Of a DNA stretch of 25,764 bases, positions 6,627 to 25,764 are shown in pieces. This stretch comes from Gemmatimonadota bacterium. GTDB lineage: Bacteria > 4572-55 > J002. The DNA lies in contig RFFQ01000128.1 in NCBI GenBank assembly GCA_003697105.1, positions 1-25,764 of the forward strand, written 5' to 3'. A model generated the notes under the pieces. It was not told where the DNA came from. It was given only the letters and a program-made list of their open reading frames with translations, and did no database searches. Positions within the stretch are counted from its first letter, which is position 1; each line of letters opens with the position of its first letter. The position numbers were made by a program, and so were the translations under genes.

Positions 6627-8114
6627 TCATTTCAGCACCGTCATCATTCGGGAAATCTGGGTTTGCCCACAGACGAATCGATAGAGATACGTGCCGGATG
6701 GCAGGTCAGATGCCTCCACCGAAAGTTGGTATTGACCCGCACCGAACGATTGGTGATCCAGTAGCGTTTTTTGCAAACGCCCTTGCACATCATACAACCT
6801 TAATTGCACCGGTTGACCGGCATCCGCCTCACTAATCTGGAAGTGAATCGTGGTGCGCGGGTTAAAGGGGTTGGGATAATTCCCCAGCAGTTGGGTAACC
6901 TGCGGCGTGGTGGTCACTTGAACCGGTTCAACCCCAACACCCCCATCAAAAATGGGGTCAAAATCGACAGTGCCCTTGCTGGCATCATCGTTATGATCGA
7001 AGATCGTCAAAGCGATTTCCTCAAAATCTTCGCTATCCCAGCGGTTATTTTCTGCCATAATATCGGCGACGGAATCGTTGTACACACTCCACACATCGCC
7101 ATCTGGATCAACGTTACCAAAAATATGATTTTCACCATCATCGCCGGGATAATCATTGACCAGATCACCCAGATTAGCACTGGCGCCATTCACAAAATAA
7201 AAGCCGGTAAAATTACCGGTGATCACGTTTCGGACAAAAAGGGGTTCCGACGTGTTACCGCCGACCATCACCCCTGCACCGGAGTTGGGATTGCCCGCTT
7301 GAAAATTATGCTGAATCTGGTTCTCCCGAAACTCTCCAGAGGCATAAAGGAGATAAACACCGGTGTAATTATACTCGATCCGGTTGCCTTCCACCAGCGG
7401 CGCGATGTTTCCTTGACCGGTAACATCAAACGCCGTGATGCCCTGCCAAACATTGTGATGAATATGACTGCCGCGAATGGTAGGGTTACAACTCCCATTT
7501 GGCGATTGGTTGCTTATCTGAATCGCGCCACGCGGGGCTTGATCCAACGCACATTGGGTAATTTCACAACTATCAATAAGGGTATTGGAGTTTTCCACGA
7601 TAAAAATACCATTCTGCTGACAGTTTTCAATATGGCAATGACGGATCGTGACCGGCGGCGGCGTGGCATTACCCACCCCAAAAACATGGATCGCTTTGGT
7701 GTTATCCCAGAACTCACAATTTTCGATCCGTACCGGCGAATTGACCGAATTGATAGCGATAGCGGCGTCTTCAATCCGACAGTAGTGAAATTGGCTCAGT
7801 TGCATGGTATTTTCCAGCCGGACACCCGCCCAATTACCACTGAGTGCTCGGAATTGCACCGGATTGACCGCGGAGCCATTTGCCTGAATGGTTCCCAGCG
7901 CGGTCAAGCGGTAATCGCCTTGAAAAATCACGTCCACACCGGGTAAAAGGGTCAATTGTTGACCCGCCGGCACAGTGATGTCTCCGAGTATCCGGTAGGG
8001 CGAACCCAGAGGAGTCCACTGCCCAAAAACATCTCCAGCGGGGACATCGGTTGCTCCCGCCAACGGAGCAAAACTACACCAACCGATAATACTTATAATC
8101 AGAACGGTACGCAT
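6627..8114 (-). CDS. Secreted right-handed beta-helix protein with FlgD-like sorting domain
   Basis: The 495-residue protein starts with a signal peptide (MRTVLIISIIGWCSFAPLAG). Residues about 45-370 form a parallel beta-helix of the NosD/pectate-lyase-like kind. Repeated turns have the pattern I-x-x-N/H-x-I-x-x-N-x-x-G-I, such as IRHCHIENCQQNGIFI, IRGSHIHHNVWQGITAF and VEGNRIEYNYTGVYLL. Such helices bind or cleave polysaccharides, but no catalytic set can be assigned. An acidic stretch (EDFEEIALTIFDHNDD) precedes the C-terminal domain at about 408-495, which has NYPNPFNPRTTI, LYDVQGR and a terminal MMTVLK. That domain resembles the FlgD-like/type A sorting domains used for export to the cell surface in FCB bacteria. 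The ATG at 8114 is chosen for GAGG about six bases upstream and for the signal peptide; the frame is open further up without a signal. Confidence 0.88.
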   Translation of the reverse strand: MRTVLIISIIGWCSFAPLAGATDVPAGDVFGQWTPLGSPYRILGDITVPAGQQLTLLPGVDVIFQGDYRLTALGTIQANGSAVNPVQFRALSGNWAGVRLENTMQLSQFHYCRIEDAAIAINSVNSPVRIENCEFWDNTKAIHVFGVGNATPPPVTIRHCHIENCQQNGIFIVENSNTLIDSCEITQCALDQAPRGAIQISNQSPNGSCNPTIRGSHIHHNVWQGITAFDVTGQGNIAPLVEGNRIEYNYTGVYLLYASGEFRENQIQHNFQAGNPNSGAGVMVGGNTSEPLFVRNVITGNFTGFYFVNGASANLGDLVNDYPGDDGENHIFGNVDPDGDVWSVYNDSVADIMAENNRWDSEDFEEIALTIFDHNDDASKGTVDFDPIFDGGVGVEPVQVTTTPQVTQLLGNYPNPFNPRTTIHFQISEADAGQPVQLRLYDVQGRLQKTLLDHQSFGAGQYQLSVEASDLPSGTYLYRFVCGQTQISRMMTVLK

Positions 8115-10610: not shown

Positions 10611-13600
10611 ATTTGAGGAGCAACATGCGCCGACTCTGGGAAAAATCCGGTGCTTGCAAGCGATAAACATAAATTCCGGAAGGCAGGCTCTCATCCGGCG
10701 TCCAACTGACCTCATGATAACCTGCTTCGCGCCAGCCATCCACAAGGGTTTCCACCAATCGTCCTTGTACATCAAAAACATCCAATTTGATGGCGGATGT
10801 GGTAGGTAATCCAAAGCGGAGGATTGTAGTTGGATTAAAAGGGTTCGGGTAGTTTTGGCTCAGGGAATAGGTACGTGGCACCTGAACTTCCGCTGGCGTC
10901 GTGGGTACATCTGTAATGGTATTGATACCCAAAAGGAGTACATTGTCCAGTTGGTGAGCATTGGTGGTATTGCTTGTAGTTGCCGTGAAGCCAAAATAGC
11001 CATCAAAGGGGACATAATCCGTCAGACGATAGTCAAAACGTTGTTCGCCATCCCAAAACACGCGAACGTATCCGTCAAAGAAATCAATAACAACATGGTG
11101 CCATTGATCGTCTTCCAGTGCGCCATCTGGGGCTTGCCATGCCGCTAAATGGTTATCCGTGCGATTAAAAATGAAGGCGATGTGTTCCTCTGAAGGGTCA
11201 TGCAACCCAGCGGTTAGCTCTGTATCAAATTCGATGGCGTACCCTTGGGTGTTGTAAAAATCCAGGGTGGGACCCCCTAACGCCGGGTAATTAAAGTAGG
11301 GTACAAATCCGAAGGTCATCCCTTCTCCCCCAGAACCACCGCCGAGCCGCAAGTCAAAACGAGCTTGGAAACGGTCTATCAAAAACCGCTGTTCGGAGAG
11401 GTAAATACGCCCCCGTTGCGCCCGATCCGGCGGCGTTAGCCAAAGGATATTCTGGGTGTCATCCCAAAACACATCATCAGAAAGATAAAACATTTCCGGG
11501 TCAAACCGGGAAAAATCACTCTGCCATAAAATAGTGGTACCGGAATCTACAACAGTTAATTGGACGGGCACTGTAATCACCGTCTCATCGGAATCGTTAC
11601 TGGTGATGGCCAACGTCGTGGTATAGACATCCGGGGTAAGCGATTCAGCGGAAAGGAGTAAGGGTACATTTAGGGTTTCAAAGGGATTGATGCTATCTGC
11701 CGGAGCCATAGGTGTGAGCCAATCCACCTCACTGATGACCTCAAATTCAAGCAGTTGTGTACCTGAATTTGAAAGCCGGATCATTTCGGTAGCGGTCTGG
11801 TACTGCGGTAATGCCAGCTGAATTTCGGACCGGTCTATCTCGATGTCGGCATAGCCGGTCGTGGGCAATTCCGCCTGATACACACCGCGTCCGTGAGTTG
11901 CCGCCCGAATATATTTGACGTCATCGGACTCAAAATAGTCAAAATCCAGAACGGGTACCATCGGGATGCCCGTCTCGCGCGTCCACGTTTGCCCCCCATC
12001 ATGGGAATAGTACACCCCGATGTCCGTTCCTAAAAGCCAGAAGTTGGGGTCTGCCCGGTCAATATAAAATGTGTTGCAGGGAATGTTGGGCATATCGCCA
12101 CTGACGTTGTGCCAGCTTTCGCCTAAGTTGGTGGAACGGTAAAGCTTATCGCCCTCATAAAACCCAGAAAAGGTGATAAACAACGTATTTTCATCCCATG
12201 GATGGAACACGGCGCGGGTGATATTGCGCCCCGGTAAACCAGACCCACGAGCAGACCACGTTTGTCCGCCATCACTGGTAATTTGTGGACGCTGGCTACC
12301 TTGAGCCACCAACAGATGATTCGGATTCACCGGACTTTGCGCCATTTGAGAAATGGCATTTTCAAACTCCAAATCGCCCATGGCTTGCCAACTATTTCCG
12401 CGATTGGTGGAACGATAGGGTTTACTCGTGGCGCTGTAAATGATGTTGTTATCCCACGGATGCATAAAATAGGGTGCAATCCAAGCTTTTGGTTCGTTAC
12501 CGGGGATCCGGATGGCGGAAAAACTGCCCGGCAAACCCCGGTTGTTACTGCGCACCAGCCCACCATTTTGGCTGGACATGTACACATAATTTGGGTTGGT
12601 ATGATCCACAAAATTATCCATCCCGTCACCCCCGTAGGAATTGGGCCACTCCGTTTCCCCCTGATCAAAGGTATGAAAACTACCGTTATCCTGAGCACCA
12701 CCGTACATCACATCCGCATCGGACGGACTCGACGACATTCGATAAAATTGTAAGGTACGGATACCGTTGTTGCGGTGTTCCCAATTCAGACCCCCATCCA
12801 AACTCTGGTAAACTCCGCCATCACAACCCACGTAGATAATGTCGGGATCGGATAGGGAATAAGCAATTTGGTGATAATCGACGTGCATTGGGCTACCCCA
12901 ATACGGGTCATCGGAGCCGGGGATCGTTACCGGAGTGAAATTGATGCCATCGGTGGTTTCCCGCAAGATATTGGTCAACAAAAAGGCATGATTGGCATCA
13001 TTTGGGCTGACACCAATATCGAGGTCATACCATCCCTGCTCGCCACTATCCACATAGAAAATCTGCTCCCAACTGAGACCATCATTGATGGTTTTGTACA
13101 CTCCCACCTGGTTTTGCCAGTGTATCGCCAGATAGATCGTGGTAAGATTCCCATCATAATGGAGGGCTAAGTGCATCCGGGTCAACCAGTCGTATTCTGA
13201 AGGGGCGGGCAACCCGGTATTTTGTTCAATCCACGTTTCACCGTGATCATTGGATACCTGAAATCCATTTCGTGAAACGGCATAAACCCGACCTTCCCGT
13301 CCGGGATGTGTGAGCACATCCAGACCATTTACCGCCTCAATCACACGTTGCCAATTTTCTCCGGCATCAACACTACGCCAAATACCGGGTTGGTCACCTG
13401 TAAACAGCGAGGCATAGACAATATCACTATCAAATGGATCGACGGCAACCCCAGAAAAGCGTGTCTGGATACCAAAATCATCTTGCCCAACAAAACGCCA
13501 CGTTTCCCCCAAGTCCTCAGATTTATACATCCCGTGCCCATCATAAGAGTAGCCATTATAAGACGGTTCACCGGTTCCGGCATAGATCACATCGGGATTT

Positions 13601-21141: not shown

Positions 21142-24100
21142 TTACTTCAATAAAATCATCGATTGGGTAGCACTAAAGTCCTCACTGTGGAGTTGGTAGA
21201 AGTAAACTCCGGAACTTACAGCTTCACCCTTCGCATTGGTGCCATCCCATTCCACCGAATAAGTTCCGGCTTCTAAGGTCTCACTAACCAACGCATTCAC
21301 CAAACGACCACTGACATCGTAAATGCGCAACTCCACATTTGCCGTTGCGGGAATATCGAAGCGGATGGTGGTCTTCGGGTTAAACGGATTGGGATAGTTG
21401 GCATATAGCTCGTAGTTTGCCGGTACCGCAATCTGCGCCTTCGCCGAACCTTTAGATTCGAAGATTTGAATATTTTCAAACGCATTCAAGTTCGTATCGA
21501 GGGCAATAACGTTGTCAACCTGAATGTTCCATTCACCGGCGGCTTTTACTTCAAATGTCAAGGTTGCCAATGTACCGCTACCCATGACACCGGTGCCATC
21601 CAGAGACGCCACATCCACCACAACCTGACCGCTGGTGTGTTGCATCATGGCATCTGGGAAGATGGCGTTGATGCCGTTCGCGGCAAATAGGTCACCGGCA
21701 GCGACGCTCTTCAATTCCAGAACATCAGCGGTGTATCCCACGGTAATGCTACCGGCAAACAGGTCAACTACATTTTGCGCCGTCAAGGCAACATCAAAGG
21801 TCTCACCGACATGCACCGTTTCCGCACCCACCACTGGGGTAAAAGCGGTAACACCGCTGGTGATGGTCTGAGATGCGGCTTTTTGATCCCGGGCAGACAC
21901 AAAAAGCCCTTCCAGTTGATCCAGCTCACTGGCTATCCGGGCACTGGCGCACTGACCTTGACCGTAATAAACCGCGAAACGCGCTAAGTCAGCGAAGTTC
22001 ACGGCATCATCATGTCCGATCTGGTCAAAAATACCATCCAGCGCCACATCCACCGCAGGATTCCAGTGGACATCGCCGTTAGCAGAGCCATACGCATATA
22101 ACAACACTAACAGGTCAAAGGCTTCGACACAGGTATCCCCGTTGAAATCGGCAATGGGCCAGATGTCATTTAAGGTGAGACCCGACAGATTACCTAGCAA
22201 TGCCAGAATTTGCGGGGAAAGTGTCGGTAAGACATTGATCCGCAACGAGGTGGAGAGAGGTTGACCAATGTTGCTTCCCACAAATTGGAGGGTAGTGCTC
22301 AAGGTAATCCCTCCCGCATCTGGCAAGCGACTATCGGACAGGTCGTAAGAAACCGTTACTTCGGCACAACTGCTAGAAGCCATGTTGATCGAGACCGACG
22401 CAAAATCCGTCAGAATCTGCTGATCATTGGGTGTGGCATAGTAGGACACATCCACGATGGCGTCTGCCGCGGCAAAACCGACCAAATCTCCACCACTGGC
22501 AGTGCAAATCTGGAAGGTGTAACTTGCGGTCGCATCATCATTTTGGTTTGTGGTTTCATACCGTGTTTCGATCTGCGGATCGGCATAGTTGACCGTCACA
22601 TCAAACGTATGGCTATCACTGCCACCGTTTCCATCCGAGACGCTCACCGTAACTTGACCCGAACCCAACGTTGTGGGGTCAAAGTGGAGTGTATTTCCAC
22701 CAACAATCGTGGCAAAACCAGAGCCAAAACCGGTAATGTCATCAACCGTATAGGTTGGCGTATCATTATCGGCATCGGTCGAGGTCAGCGCGATGTCGTA
22801 CGGTGTAGAGAGCGTCAACGTCAACTGGGCATCCAAGGCGCCAAGTACCGGAGCATCATTCACATTTTCAACCGTTACTTGCATGTCATCGCTCACAGAA
22901 AGCCCGCCTTCGTCGGTTGCGGTAATCGTGACATTGGCAACCCCATTCCAATCGGCAGCGGGTGTAAATGACAAGACACCATCCGTTGTGATATTCACCG
23001 TCAATTCACCCACGCGTAGGGTCTGTTGTGCTTTGACATCGGTCAGAGCTTTGGTTACAGACGATACCGACCGCGAACCATCTTCCCGTAAGGTTACAAC
23101 GGTGTAACTGGAAGACCACGTTAAGTTGGCATCTGCGGTTTCAATGTCGCTCACATACGATTTCAAATCGATTACTGGGGATGGCGTCGGCGAGCCATCT
23201 TCGCTAAATGTCACATCCGGTAGTGCCGTATCGAAGACTGGTTGGTCGTTCACCGGATTCACCGTGACGGTCACAGTGGTTGTATCCGCCCCGCCTAACT
23301 GGTCAATCGCAATAAACTTGACCTGTTTATTACCATACCAATTTGCGGCGGCGTTAAAGGTAGCCACCCCGGAGGCAATCGATACGGTCAGGTCTGTACC
23401 GCCACCAATCACTTCCGAAAGATAAATCAATTGGTTAGCGGGTGTCAGATCGTCGGTCACTTGTTGGGTTAAGTCAACCGTAGGCGCCGGTGTCTCATCT
23501 TCATTGAAATTGACCGCTGTAAATGTCGCACTCCATTGGGGAGGGTTGTTGCTCGGGTCTGGAATAATTACGGTGATGGTCAAATCATCCGTCAGCGGCT
23601 CTGGGTCCTCAACCTGTAATGTCACCGGATATGTCCCGTAGCTTACGCCGATATGGGAAAATCGAAATGTTGTCCCATTATCCGTCACATTGATACTATC
23701 ATTGGGCACCAAAACAGTCCAGGAAAGCTCCGCATCGGTATTATCCACATCTTCAGCTAAATCTGCCAAGGTGACATCTGCGAAACCCTGATAGGGTACA
23801 ATCAGGACATAGCTATCCAAAGCGACTGGAGCATCGTTGACCGGATTGACTGTTACCGTAAACGCATCATTTTCAGAGCCATTATCGGCATCCGTGACCG
23901 TAACCGTCACGGTTGCCGTGCCATACCAATCTTGCTCGGTCGTAAACGTTAACGAACCGGTGGCACTGACCGAAGGCACCAATTCCGTCATATTGGAACT
24001 CACTTGCCACGTCAGTTGATCATCAGCGGTTTCCACATCGGAGACATATTGACGCAAATCAATTGCGGCAGGAGTGGTATCTTCATCAAAGCTCTGATCC

Positions 24101-25764
24101 GGAACCGGCGTATCAAAGACCGGAATATCATTCACAGACTCCACCGTAACTTGAATTTGGTCAGATGCCGAAGAATGACGTGTATCGGTTGCCGTAAAAA
24201 TAACTTGCTTGGTACCAAACCAATTGGAAGCTACAGAAAACGAAGCCATCCCGGTACCATCCACCGAAACGGTTAAATCGGTACCGCCACCAACAACTTC
24301 CGCGTCCCAACTCACAATCGCATCACCTTCACTACTGTTTGGGTCGCTGGCATACGTTGCCAAGTTGATAGTTGGCGCAGGTGTTGGCGAGCCATCTTCA
24401 CTAAAGGTTTGATCGGGCACTGGTGTCCACACCGGCGGGTCGTTCCGAAAATCATCCGCACCGATACTTGGCGGGTCAGGACGCTCCGTACCTTCTTGGT
24501 CTGTCGTAATTCCTGAAATCGCGACTCCTGCACTCACCGCCGGAGAGGAAACAGAGGTCAATTTAAGGTTAGTGGTACTGGTAAATCCGGGGTCACCACT
24601 GATACTATTGGCATCGGCACCGGTTATACCCCGGCTGGCTAAGGCTGCTTGCCAATCGCTTAGCAAGGTTAAATTTTGTTCCGGTTGTCCGCTTGGCTTT
24701 CCATAACCCACATGACCCATACCGTTGTTGTTGCTGACATAGAGGTCATTATAGTTAATGTCAGCAAACTGGGTCATGGTACCGCCATTTGCCACCTGAA
24801 TGGCGTAGTGCGATCCGCCAGCATCAGACTCCCGCATATTCACAAAAATATTGTTTTTTACAATCAAAGAGGGCGTGCCATTCGCCGAGGAAGTAAAAAA
24901 CGCAGTTGTCGATTGGCTATTACTTTGGGTGCCCGTCAAATAAACACTGTTAAAATAGAAACTGGAGTTGGTGCCATTATTTTCCAAGAAAATTCCGCGA
25001 ACATTGCCCGTACCGGTCACATTGAGGTCGGAAATCATATTGTTCACGTAGGAGTTATTTTGGCTATTTGCCAGCCATAAGCCGTACACATTGCTGTTGG
25101 TTGTAGCGGAAAGGGTGTAAATACGGTTTGCCGAAACTTCGGCATTCTGCACTCCCGCCGTGAACCGAATACCGCTGGTCGTAAAGTTACCATTGCTGGC
25201 ATTACGGATGGTATTCCCTCTAAGAACCAGCGACTGCTCATAAGCGGCACGAATACCGGCAGCACCAAAGTTTTCAATGGTATTTCCTTCAACCGTGTTG
25301 CTCATATTCGGGTTTGAGGAATCCCCTTCCAGATAGACACCGCGGGAATTGGAAGCGGCTCCAGTGGACAAGGTACAATTCTTAACCGCATTGTATGTTG
25401 CGGCGTTAGAAGCACTTCCCAAAATATGCACGGCGTGTTGTCCGGTGACCGCAATGGTCAAACCGTCAAGGGTCACATAATCCGAACCATTGAGCTGAAA
25501 ACCATAATCACCGGTAATATTGAACGTCGGATTAATATTGGTTGCCGCCCGAATCGTTACCGTATTAAGGGCACTCGTCCCATTCACAACCCCGATCATC
25601 ATCGGGCTGGTATCGGATGGATAGGAATTATCGGTGAGTTCCATAGTTACGGCACCACTGACACCCCGATCATTCAGAGCTGCAACTGCCGCCGACATCG
25701 TGGAGAAGTCACCGCCATTCCCGACCGTATAATTACCGGACAACGGTCCGGGTGCGGTAGAAAA
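21142..25764 (-). CDS. Giant modular surface protein: beta-helix, cadherin-like repeats, dockerin, cohesin, sorting domain (5' end outside window)
   Basis: The frame is open to the right edge, so the N-terminus is missing; the 1,541 residues seen are a minimum. Numbering below counts from base 25743. A GNYTVGNGGDFSTMSAAV block opens it. Residues 80-430 form a right-handed beta-helix with N-x-I turns, ending in IGADDF. Six cadherin/Ig-like repeats follow at about 434-1052, most opening with ND-x-PV and two with -F-SEDGSPTP. A cysteine-containing beta-sandwich lies at 1053-1175. A dockerin-like pair of calcium loops lies at 1184-1265 (DFNGDTCVEAFD, then DDAVNFADLARF). A cohesin-like domain lies at about 1305-1425 (VHVGETFDVAL, GSGTLATLTFEV). 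The FlgD-like sorting domain is at 1443-1533 (NYPNPFNPKTTI, IYDVSGRLV, terminal MILLK). It is probably a secreted, calcium-stiffened adhesin or scaffold. A strong terminator follows. Confidence 0.93.
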   Translation of the reverse strand, partial: FSTAPGPLSGNYTVGNGGDFSTMSAAVAALNDRGVSGAVTMELTDNSYPSDTSPMMIGVVNGTSALNTVTIRAATNINPTFNITGDYGFQLNGSDYVTLDGLTIAVTGQHAVHILGSASNAATYNAVKNCTLSTGAASNSRGVYLEGDSSNPNMSNTVEGNTIENFGAAGIRAAYEQSLVLRGNTIRNASNGNFTTSGIRFTAGVQNAEVSANRIYTLSATTNSNVYGLWLANSQNNSYVNNMISDLNVTGTGNVRGIFLENNGTNSSFYFNSVYLTGTQSNSQSTTAFFTSSANGTPSLIVKNNIFVNMRESDAGGSHYAIQVANGGTMTQFADINYNDLYVSNNNGMGHVGYGKPSGQPEQNLTLLSDWQAALASRGITGADANSISGDPGFTSTTNLKLTSVSSPAVSAGVAISGITTDQEGTERPDPPSIGADDFRNDPPVWTPVPDQTFSEDGSPTPAPTINLATYASDPNSSEGDAIVSWDAEVVGGGTDLTVSVDGTGMASFSVASNWFGTKQVIFTATDTRHSSASDQIQVTVESVNDIPVFDTPVPDQSFDEDTTPAAIDLRQYVSDVETADDQLTWQVSSNMTELVPSVSATGSLTFTTEQDWYGTATVTVTVTDADNGSENDAFTVTVNPVNDAPVALDSYVLIVPYQGFADVTLADLAEDVDNTDAELSWTVLVPNDSINVTDNGTTFRFSHIGVSYGTYPVTLQVEDPEPLTDDLTITVIIPDPSNNPPQWSATFTAVNFNEDETPAPTVDLTQQVTDDLTPANQLIYLSEVIGGGTDLTVSIASGVATFNAAANWYGNKQVKFIAIDQLGGADTTTVTVTVNPVNDQPVFDTALPDVTFSEDGSPTPSPVIDLKSYVSDIETADANLTWSSSYTVVTLREDGSRSVSSVTKALTDVKAQQTLRVGELTVNITTDGVLSFTPAADWNGVANVTITATDEGGLSVSDDMQVTVENVNDAPVLGALDAQLTLTLSTPYDIALTSTDADNDTPTYTVDDITGFGSGFATIVGGNTLHFDPTTLGSGQVTVSVSDGNGGSDSHTFDVTVNYADPQIETRYETTNQNDDATASYTFQICTASGGDLVGFAAADAIVDVSYYATPNDQQILTDFASVSINMASSSCAEVTVSYDLSDSRLPDAGGITLSTTLQFVGSNIGQPLSTSLRINVLPTLSPQILALLGNLSGLTLNDIWPIADFNGDTCVEAFDLLVLLYAYGSANGDVHWNPAVDVALDGIFDQIGHDDAVNFADLARFAVYYGQGQCASARIASELDQLEGLFVSARDQKAASQTITSGVTAFTPVVGAETVHVGETFDVALTAQNVVDLFAGSITVGYTADVLELKSVAAGDLFAANGINAIFPDAMMQHTSGQVVVDVASLDGTGVMGSGTLATLTFEVKAAGEWNIQVDNVIALDTNLNAFENIQIFESKGSAKAQIAVPANYELYANYPNPFNPKTTIRFDIPATANVELRIYDVSGRLVNALVSETLEAGTYSVEWDGTNAKGEAVSSGVYFYQLHSEDFSATQSMILLK

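Follow-up and report, generated by a model that had tools for sequence, protein, structure and literature searches.

The large secreted protein analysed here ends in a dockerin, a cohesin and a type IX secretion system (T9SS) sorting domain, in that order, and this arrangement is best read as a cell-anchored docking tail that is not a one-off in its genome. We consider that the tail may act as an anchored plug-and-socket coupling station that receives dockerins of the same subtype as its own, with a probability of roughly 0.45. The window, i.e. the whole stretch of DNA analysed (25,764 nucleotides), is the complete contig C3 of a 4.18 Mb genome assembled in 199 contigs. The gene runs off the contig at its 5' end, so that its signal peptide, if any, falls outside the window. 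From the N- to the C-terminus, the open reading frame encodes a beta-helix, cadherin-like/tandem-95 repeats, an X-like module, the dockerin, the cohesin and a T9SS type-A sorting domain (Table 1), and the product is probably a large, T9SS-exported, adhesin-like surface protein. The first-pass annotation had already placed the dockerin before the cohesin and the sorting domain; both order and positions were right, and only the extents were refined. The observation of a dockerin together with a cohesin is far beyond chance. Both domains are missed in a Pfam scan of the whole protein and need short pieces for their detection. The sorting domain scored 44 bits with TIGR04183 (cut-off 23; 40 bits in another scan) and 44.7 bits with FlgD_ig. 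Two more type-A sorting domains are encoded elsewhere in the window.

Table 1. Features of the window discussed in the text
Feature	Position	Strand	Details
Open reading frame	21142-25764	-	1540 aa; large secreted protein, truncated 5' by the contig end
Right-handed beta-helix region	24946-25503	-	residues 88-273; PF13229, 31.1 bits
Cadherin-like/tandem-95 Ig-type repeats	22585-24447	-	residues ~440-1060; PF17963, 69.2 bits; PF17892, 43.3 bits; NF012211, 119.2 bits
X-like module	22189-22575	-	~120 aa; directly before dockerin
Divergent dockerin	21961-22155	-	residues 1204-1268; both Ca loops present, loop 2 enlarged by 9 residues
Dockerin Ca loop 1	22114-22149	-	residues 1206-1217; DFNGDTCVEAFD
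Dockerin Ca loop 2 with insertion	21988-22050	-	residues 1239-1259; DVALDGIFDQIGHDDAVNFAD
Cohesin	21439-21843	-	residues 1308-1442; profile and fold
T9SS type-A C-terminal sorting domain	21154-21396	-	NYPNPFNP motif; TIGR04183, FlgD_ig
Further T9SS type-A sorting domain	6648-6878	-	open frame of 534 aa
Further T9SS type-A sorting domain	10621-10851	-	open frame of 1189 aa

Profile and predicted fold both identify the cohesin clearly, and dockerin binding is its predicted function. PF00963 matched positions 21493-21834 with 43.7 bits in the genome profile search (cut-off 24.1) and scored 40.1-43.8 bits when the C-terminal piece was scanned alone. The AlphaFold model has the jelly-roll cohesin fold, aligning with 4uyq_A over 131 residues (VIA Z 14.2, rmsd 2.5), and its best Foldseek matches are cohesins throughout. 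Profile and fold thus agree with the cohesin assignment made earlier by motif reading.

The dockerin is a divergent one. Scanned alone, it scores 13.9 bits with PF00404, below the gathering cut-off of 22.9, which is a detection threshold rather than a biological feature. We nevertheless file it as a divergent dockerin because of its loops and its fold, and in that form the original assignment was borne out by the family profile, the predicted structure and the presence of both Ca loops. The first PDB match of the family profile is 2y3n_B (E 6.4e-9), followed by calmodulins, which are general EF-hand relatives. The dockerin model (pLDDT 79.4, pTM 0.69) aligns with 2y3n_B over 60 of 60 residues (VIA Z 9.0), and its 13 Foldseek matches, although weak (best E 0.06), are all dockerins or dockerin-bearing chains. 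This type II dockerin of B. cellulosolvens is therefore the closest solved dockerin by both profile and fold; its partner is a type II cohesin and its second Ca loop lacks an insertion, whereas that of the window dockerin carries one. In an alignment of paralogues and relatives (A6), both loops have acidic residues at Ca positions 1, 5 and 12. Loop 1 is canonical; in loop 2 all three positions are Asp, and nine additional residues lie between the first and the second. D1 and D12 of loop 1 occur in all 42 aligned tails, while in loop 2 they occur in 36 and 40 of the 42, respectively. The loop-2 stretch 'DFEDL' is conserved over 20-odd families.

In type II X-Doc modules, an X module precedes the dockerin, and X-Doc entries are among the Foldseek matches of the window dockerin model. 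CipA-type scaffoldins carry their dockerin on the C-terminal side of the cohesins, unlike the window protein, where it precedes the cohesin. The X-like module occurs in six copies in the genome, each directly before a subtype-A dockerin, one of them in a protein that ends at its dockerin (contig C35). Neither a Pfam or PDB relative of this module nor any relation to known X modules was found.

A profile search of the genome for further dockerin and cohesin proteins retrieved many candidates for docking, with 21 cohesin and about 31 dockerin matches. T9SS machinery is present, with SprA detected at 508.6 bits over the frame and many PorV-family proteins over the cut-off, alongside about 100 type-A sorting domains. 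About ten tails combine dockerin, cohesin and sorting domain, nine of them in complete chains, which fall into subtype A, that of the window (C3, C14, C110, C179 and C183), subtype B (C163, C111 and C124) and subtype C (C31). Five further B-type tails (C160, C125, C48, C176 and C140b) contain a cohesin-like remnant, tentatively regarded as a shortened cohesin (profile probability 78 percent). Among the roughly 102 sorting-domain proteins, dockerins and cohesins are linked (Fisher p 2e-9). A second kind of protein, with about 14 members (C165, C74b, C43, C103, C96, C53, C140a, C56, C30, C36, C74a, C175, C2 and C35; loci L056-L068, L071, L073, L074 and L137), ends in a dockerin and has no sorting domain. 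These include S8 subtilases (C165 and C74b), an M14 carboxypeptidase (C43), a beta-propeller (C103) and a protein with LamG repeats (C53). The sole exception to the two kinds is an esterase with half a dockerin followed by a sorting domain (C26). No glycoside hydrolase was found among the dockerin-tailed proteins scanned, which include peptidases. In the dockerin tree, each of the subtypes A, B and C is found both stand-alone and in tails with a cohesin, which provides a Rosetta-stone argument for the coupling station.

All eight dockerin-ended proteins whose start is intact begin with an apparent signal peptide, and all eight are without a sorting domain. The subtype-B dockerin ('ISAFDAARVAQ..DVTGDGSISPFDAARIAQ') sits within a CarboxypepD_reg-like domain whose end is GEVTGNW (L044, L045, L047 and L058-L063), and two gingipain-type C25 peptidases carry it.

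The tail recurs well beyond this genome. An alignment of five of its own dockerin-cohesin units (A1) matched in 41 of 290 genomes searched, and a broader set (A2) in 55 of 386. We retrieved 43 non-redundant tandems from 24 genomes, namely the window's own, 22 others and the isolate KW1-S15_112; of the 22, only G001 shares the class of the window's genome, and the rest are listed merely as the same domain. All 43 tandems stand directly before a C-terminal sorting domain (with the motif in 41 and a variant PNP motif in two), a count partly shaped by selection, because the seeds all came from reading frames ending in a sorting domain. The linker between dockerin and cohesin spans 25-54 residues in 42 tails. 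In a scanned collection of genome contigs, only four distant loci were detected, and viral contigs scanned with A1 gave no match. A search of a literature collection that is itself incomplete found no description of this tail as a unit. Recurrence in at least 24 genomes probably reflects plug-and-socket coupling of secreted proteins at the cell surface.

Dockerin and cohesin also diverge together. Their pairwise distances correlate at r 0.45, at 0.40 between genomes only and, with one sequence per genome, at 0.31 for one pick and at a mean of 0.40 over 100 picks. The correlation with the sorting domain of the same chain is about 0 for the dockerin and 0.19-0.28 for the cohesin. Since the two halves of the sorting domain correlate with each other at 0.35-0.49, this domain is not merely noisy. 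Co-divergence of the dockerin with the cohesin but not with the sorting domain suggests, at the sequence level, a matched unit, and it would fit a matched pair equally well for binding in cis, between sibling chains or to a third party. The same pattern would also arise if dockerin and cohesin pass on together as one block and the sorting domains of a species become homogenised, which is a point against the coupling station. An AlphaFold model of the two domains together was built from a ten-row alignment (A5) in which, because cohesin fragments were misaligned in A3 and A4, only two rows cover the cohesin. Both domains are folded (mean pLDDT 71.2) but not confidently docked (pTM 0.48, linker pLDDT below 50). 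The undocked arrangement could be held against a coupling station; with two rows over the cohesin, it is not evidence against docking.

In the proposed coupling station, the sorting domain would keep the cohesin at the surface, beside the membrane anchor. There the cohesin would bind dockerins of the same subtype as the chain's own, mainly on secreted proteins that lack a sorting domain but also on sibling chains. For the window subtype, the candidate partner without a sorting domain is the protein on contig C35. The chain's own dockerin could provide a further link to another cohesin or, with no other partner bound, occupy the socket of its own chain, and the dockerin fold would require calcium. 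It is plausible that other secreted proteins dock on the tail, although those that end in a dockerin and lack a sorting domain may remain in the periplasm, where the tail could not reach them.

Alternatively, the linker of 25-54 residues might let the dockerin fold back onto its neighbouring cohesin in the same chain. Just above the anchor, this would give either a Ca-dependent joint that is rigid or bears force, or a socket plugged by its own chain. The near-invariable adjacency and order of the two domains, the linker length and their co-divergence are in line with such a closure in cis, and the conservation of 'DFEDL' is consistent with one conserved partner. However, the thin-alignment model leaves the domains apart and stand-alone dockerins of the same subtype exist, and we regard closure in cis as unlikely. 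Still less probable is that dockerin and cohesin do not bind at all and form a Ca-stabilised stalk, or an aid to folding or secretion, before the sorting domain. The C-terminal position next to the sorting domain in all 43 tandems read would suit a structural role, as would the five B-type tails that keep the dockerin-like part although the cohesin is reduced to a remnant; yet a spacer needs no co-diverging dockerin and cohesin, and it leaves unexplained the stand-alone dockerins that end proteins without a sorting domain. Surface fibres, an idea raised in the first-pass annotation, in which the dockerin of one chain would bind the cohesin of the next identical chain, draw on the same sequence evidence as closure in cis (tandem recurrence and co-divergence) and are suited by the upstream repeats, but they would compete with closure in cis and, because each chain is anchored through the domain adjoining its cohesin, would extend parallel to the membrane, and we consider them the least probable of these readings.

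The first-pass annotation had contrasted the window protein with cellulosomes on the premise that their cohesins and dockerins sit on different proteins. This is wrong as a rule, since scaffoldins often carry both (PMC3413522, PMC9012536). The scaffoldins of A. cellulolyticus combine cohesins and a dockerin in one polypeptide (PMC3413522), as the window chain does. Clostridial scaffoldins of this kind are anchored in the Gram-positive manner by SLH or sortase and their enzymes are mostly glycoside hydrolases, whereas the window protein has a T9SS sorting domain. In ANME archaea, non-cellulosomal proteins contain a dockerin and cohesins in one chain (PMC9012536). The window chain is likewise non-cellulosomal; the archaeal proteins differ from it in their partners and are described with no T9SS sorting domain (PMC9012536). 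The nearest described system is that of Ca. Stygibacter (Cloacimonadota), with a T9SS-anchored scaffoldin of 3755 aa that contains tandem cohesins, CBM2/CBM3 and a T9SS C-terminal domain, and with signal-peptide enzymes ending in dockerins (PMC8542988). In both systems, a type IX sorting domain anchors a cohesin chain, and the same genome encodes dockerin-ended proteins. In contrast to that scaffoldin with its tandem cohesins and CBMs, the window protein has a single cohesin and no CBM; its cohesin directly follows a dockerin, and the passages on the scaffoldin describe no dockerin beside its cohesins (PMC8542988). One cohesin, and no CBM found by Pfam and profile scans in the 1540 aa present, is not the composition of a cellulosomal scaffoldin.

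A broader and rather doubtful extension of the coupling station is that dockerin and cohesin before a sorting domain form a self-complementary, Ca-dependent coupler across many T9SS lineages. Such a coupler would close in cis or link like chains at the anchor and exchange with dockerin-tailed secreted proteins, giving an export-linked surface assembly distinct from cellulosomes. If the coupling reading is right, many uncultured T9SS lineages would attach and combine their secreted proteins at the surface by a common Ca-dependent plug-and-socket tail, and this would account for the retention at the cell of secreted proteins that lack a sorting domain. The tail also offers compact new candidate cohesin-dockerin pairs, with an unusual Ca-loop insertion, that are directly assayable.

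The order of domains is not universal. That the cohesin always lies between dockerin and sorting domain is ruled out by genome G040 (L114/L202), where three cohesins are followed by a dockerin and the sorting domain, and by IMG/VR UViG_2740892559_000001 (L147 and L163), in which a dockerin precedes the sorting domain with no cohesin between them. The latter sequence, called viral, encodes proteins with dockerins and T9SS-like sorting domains and looks like misassigned bacterial DNA. In several unrelated genomes (G026, G211, G238, G326 and G337), a small secreted protein with a cohesin, either alone or with a sorting domain, is encoded just downstream of the gene with the complete tail (L186, L184, L182, L188 and L191, respectively). 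One reading frame of Latescibacteria OY282377.1 (L105) apparently contains two internal units resembling the dockerin-cohesin tandem, with a canonical dockerin at its end, and no other such tandem was seen at a distance from a sorting domain.
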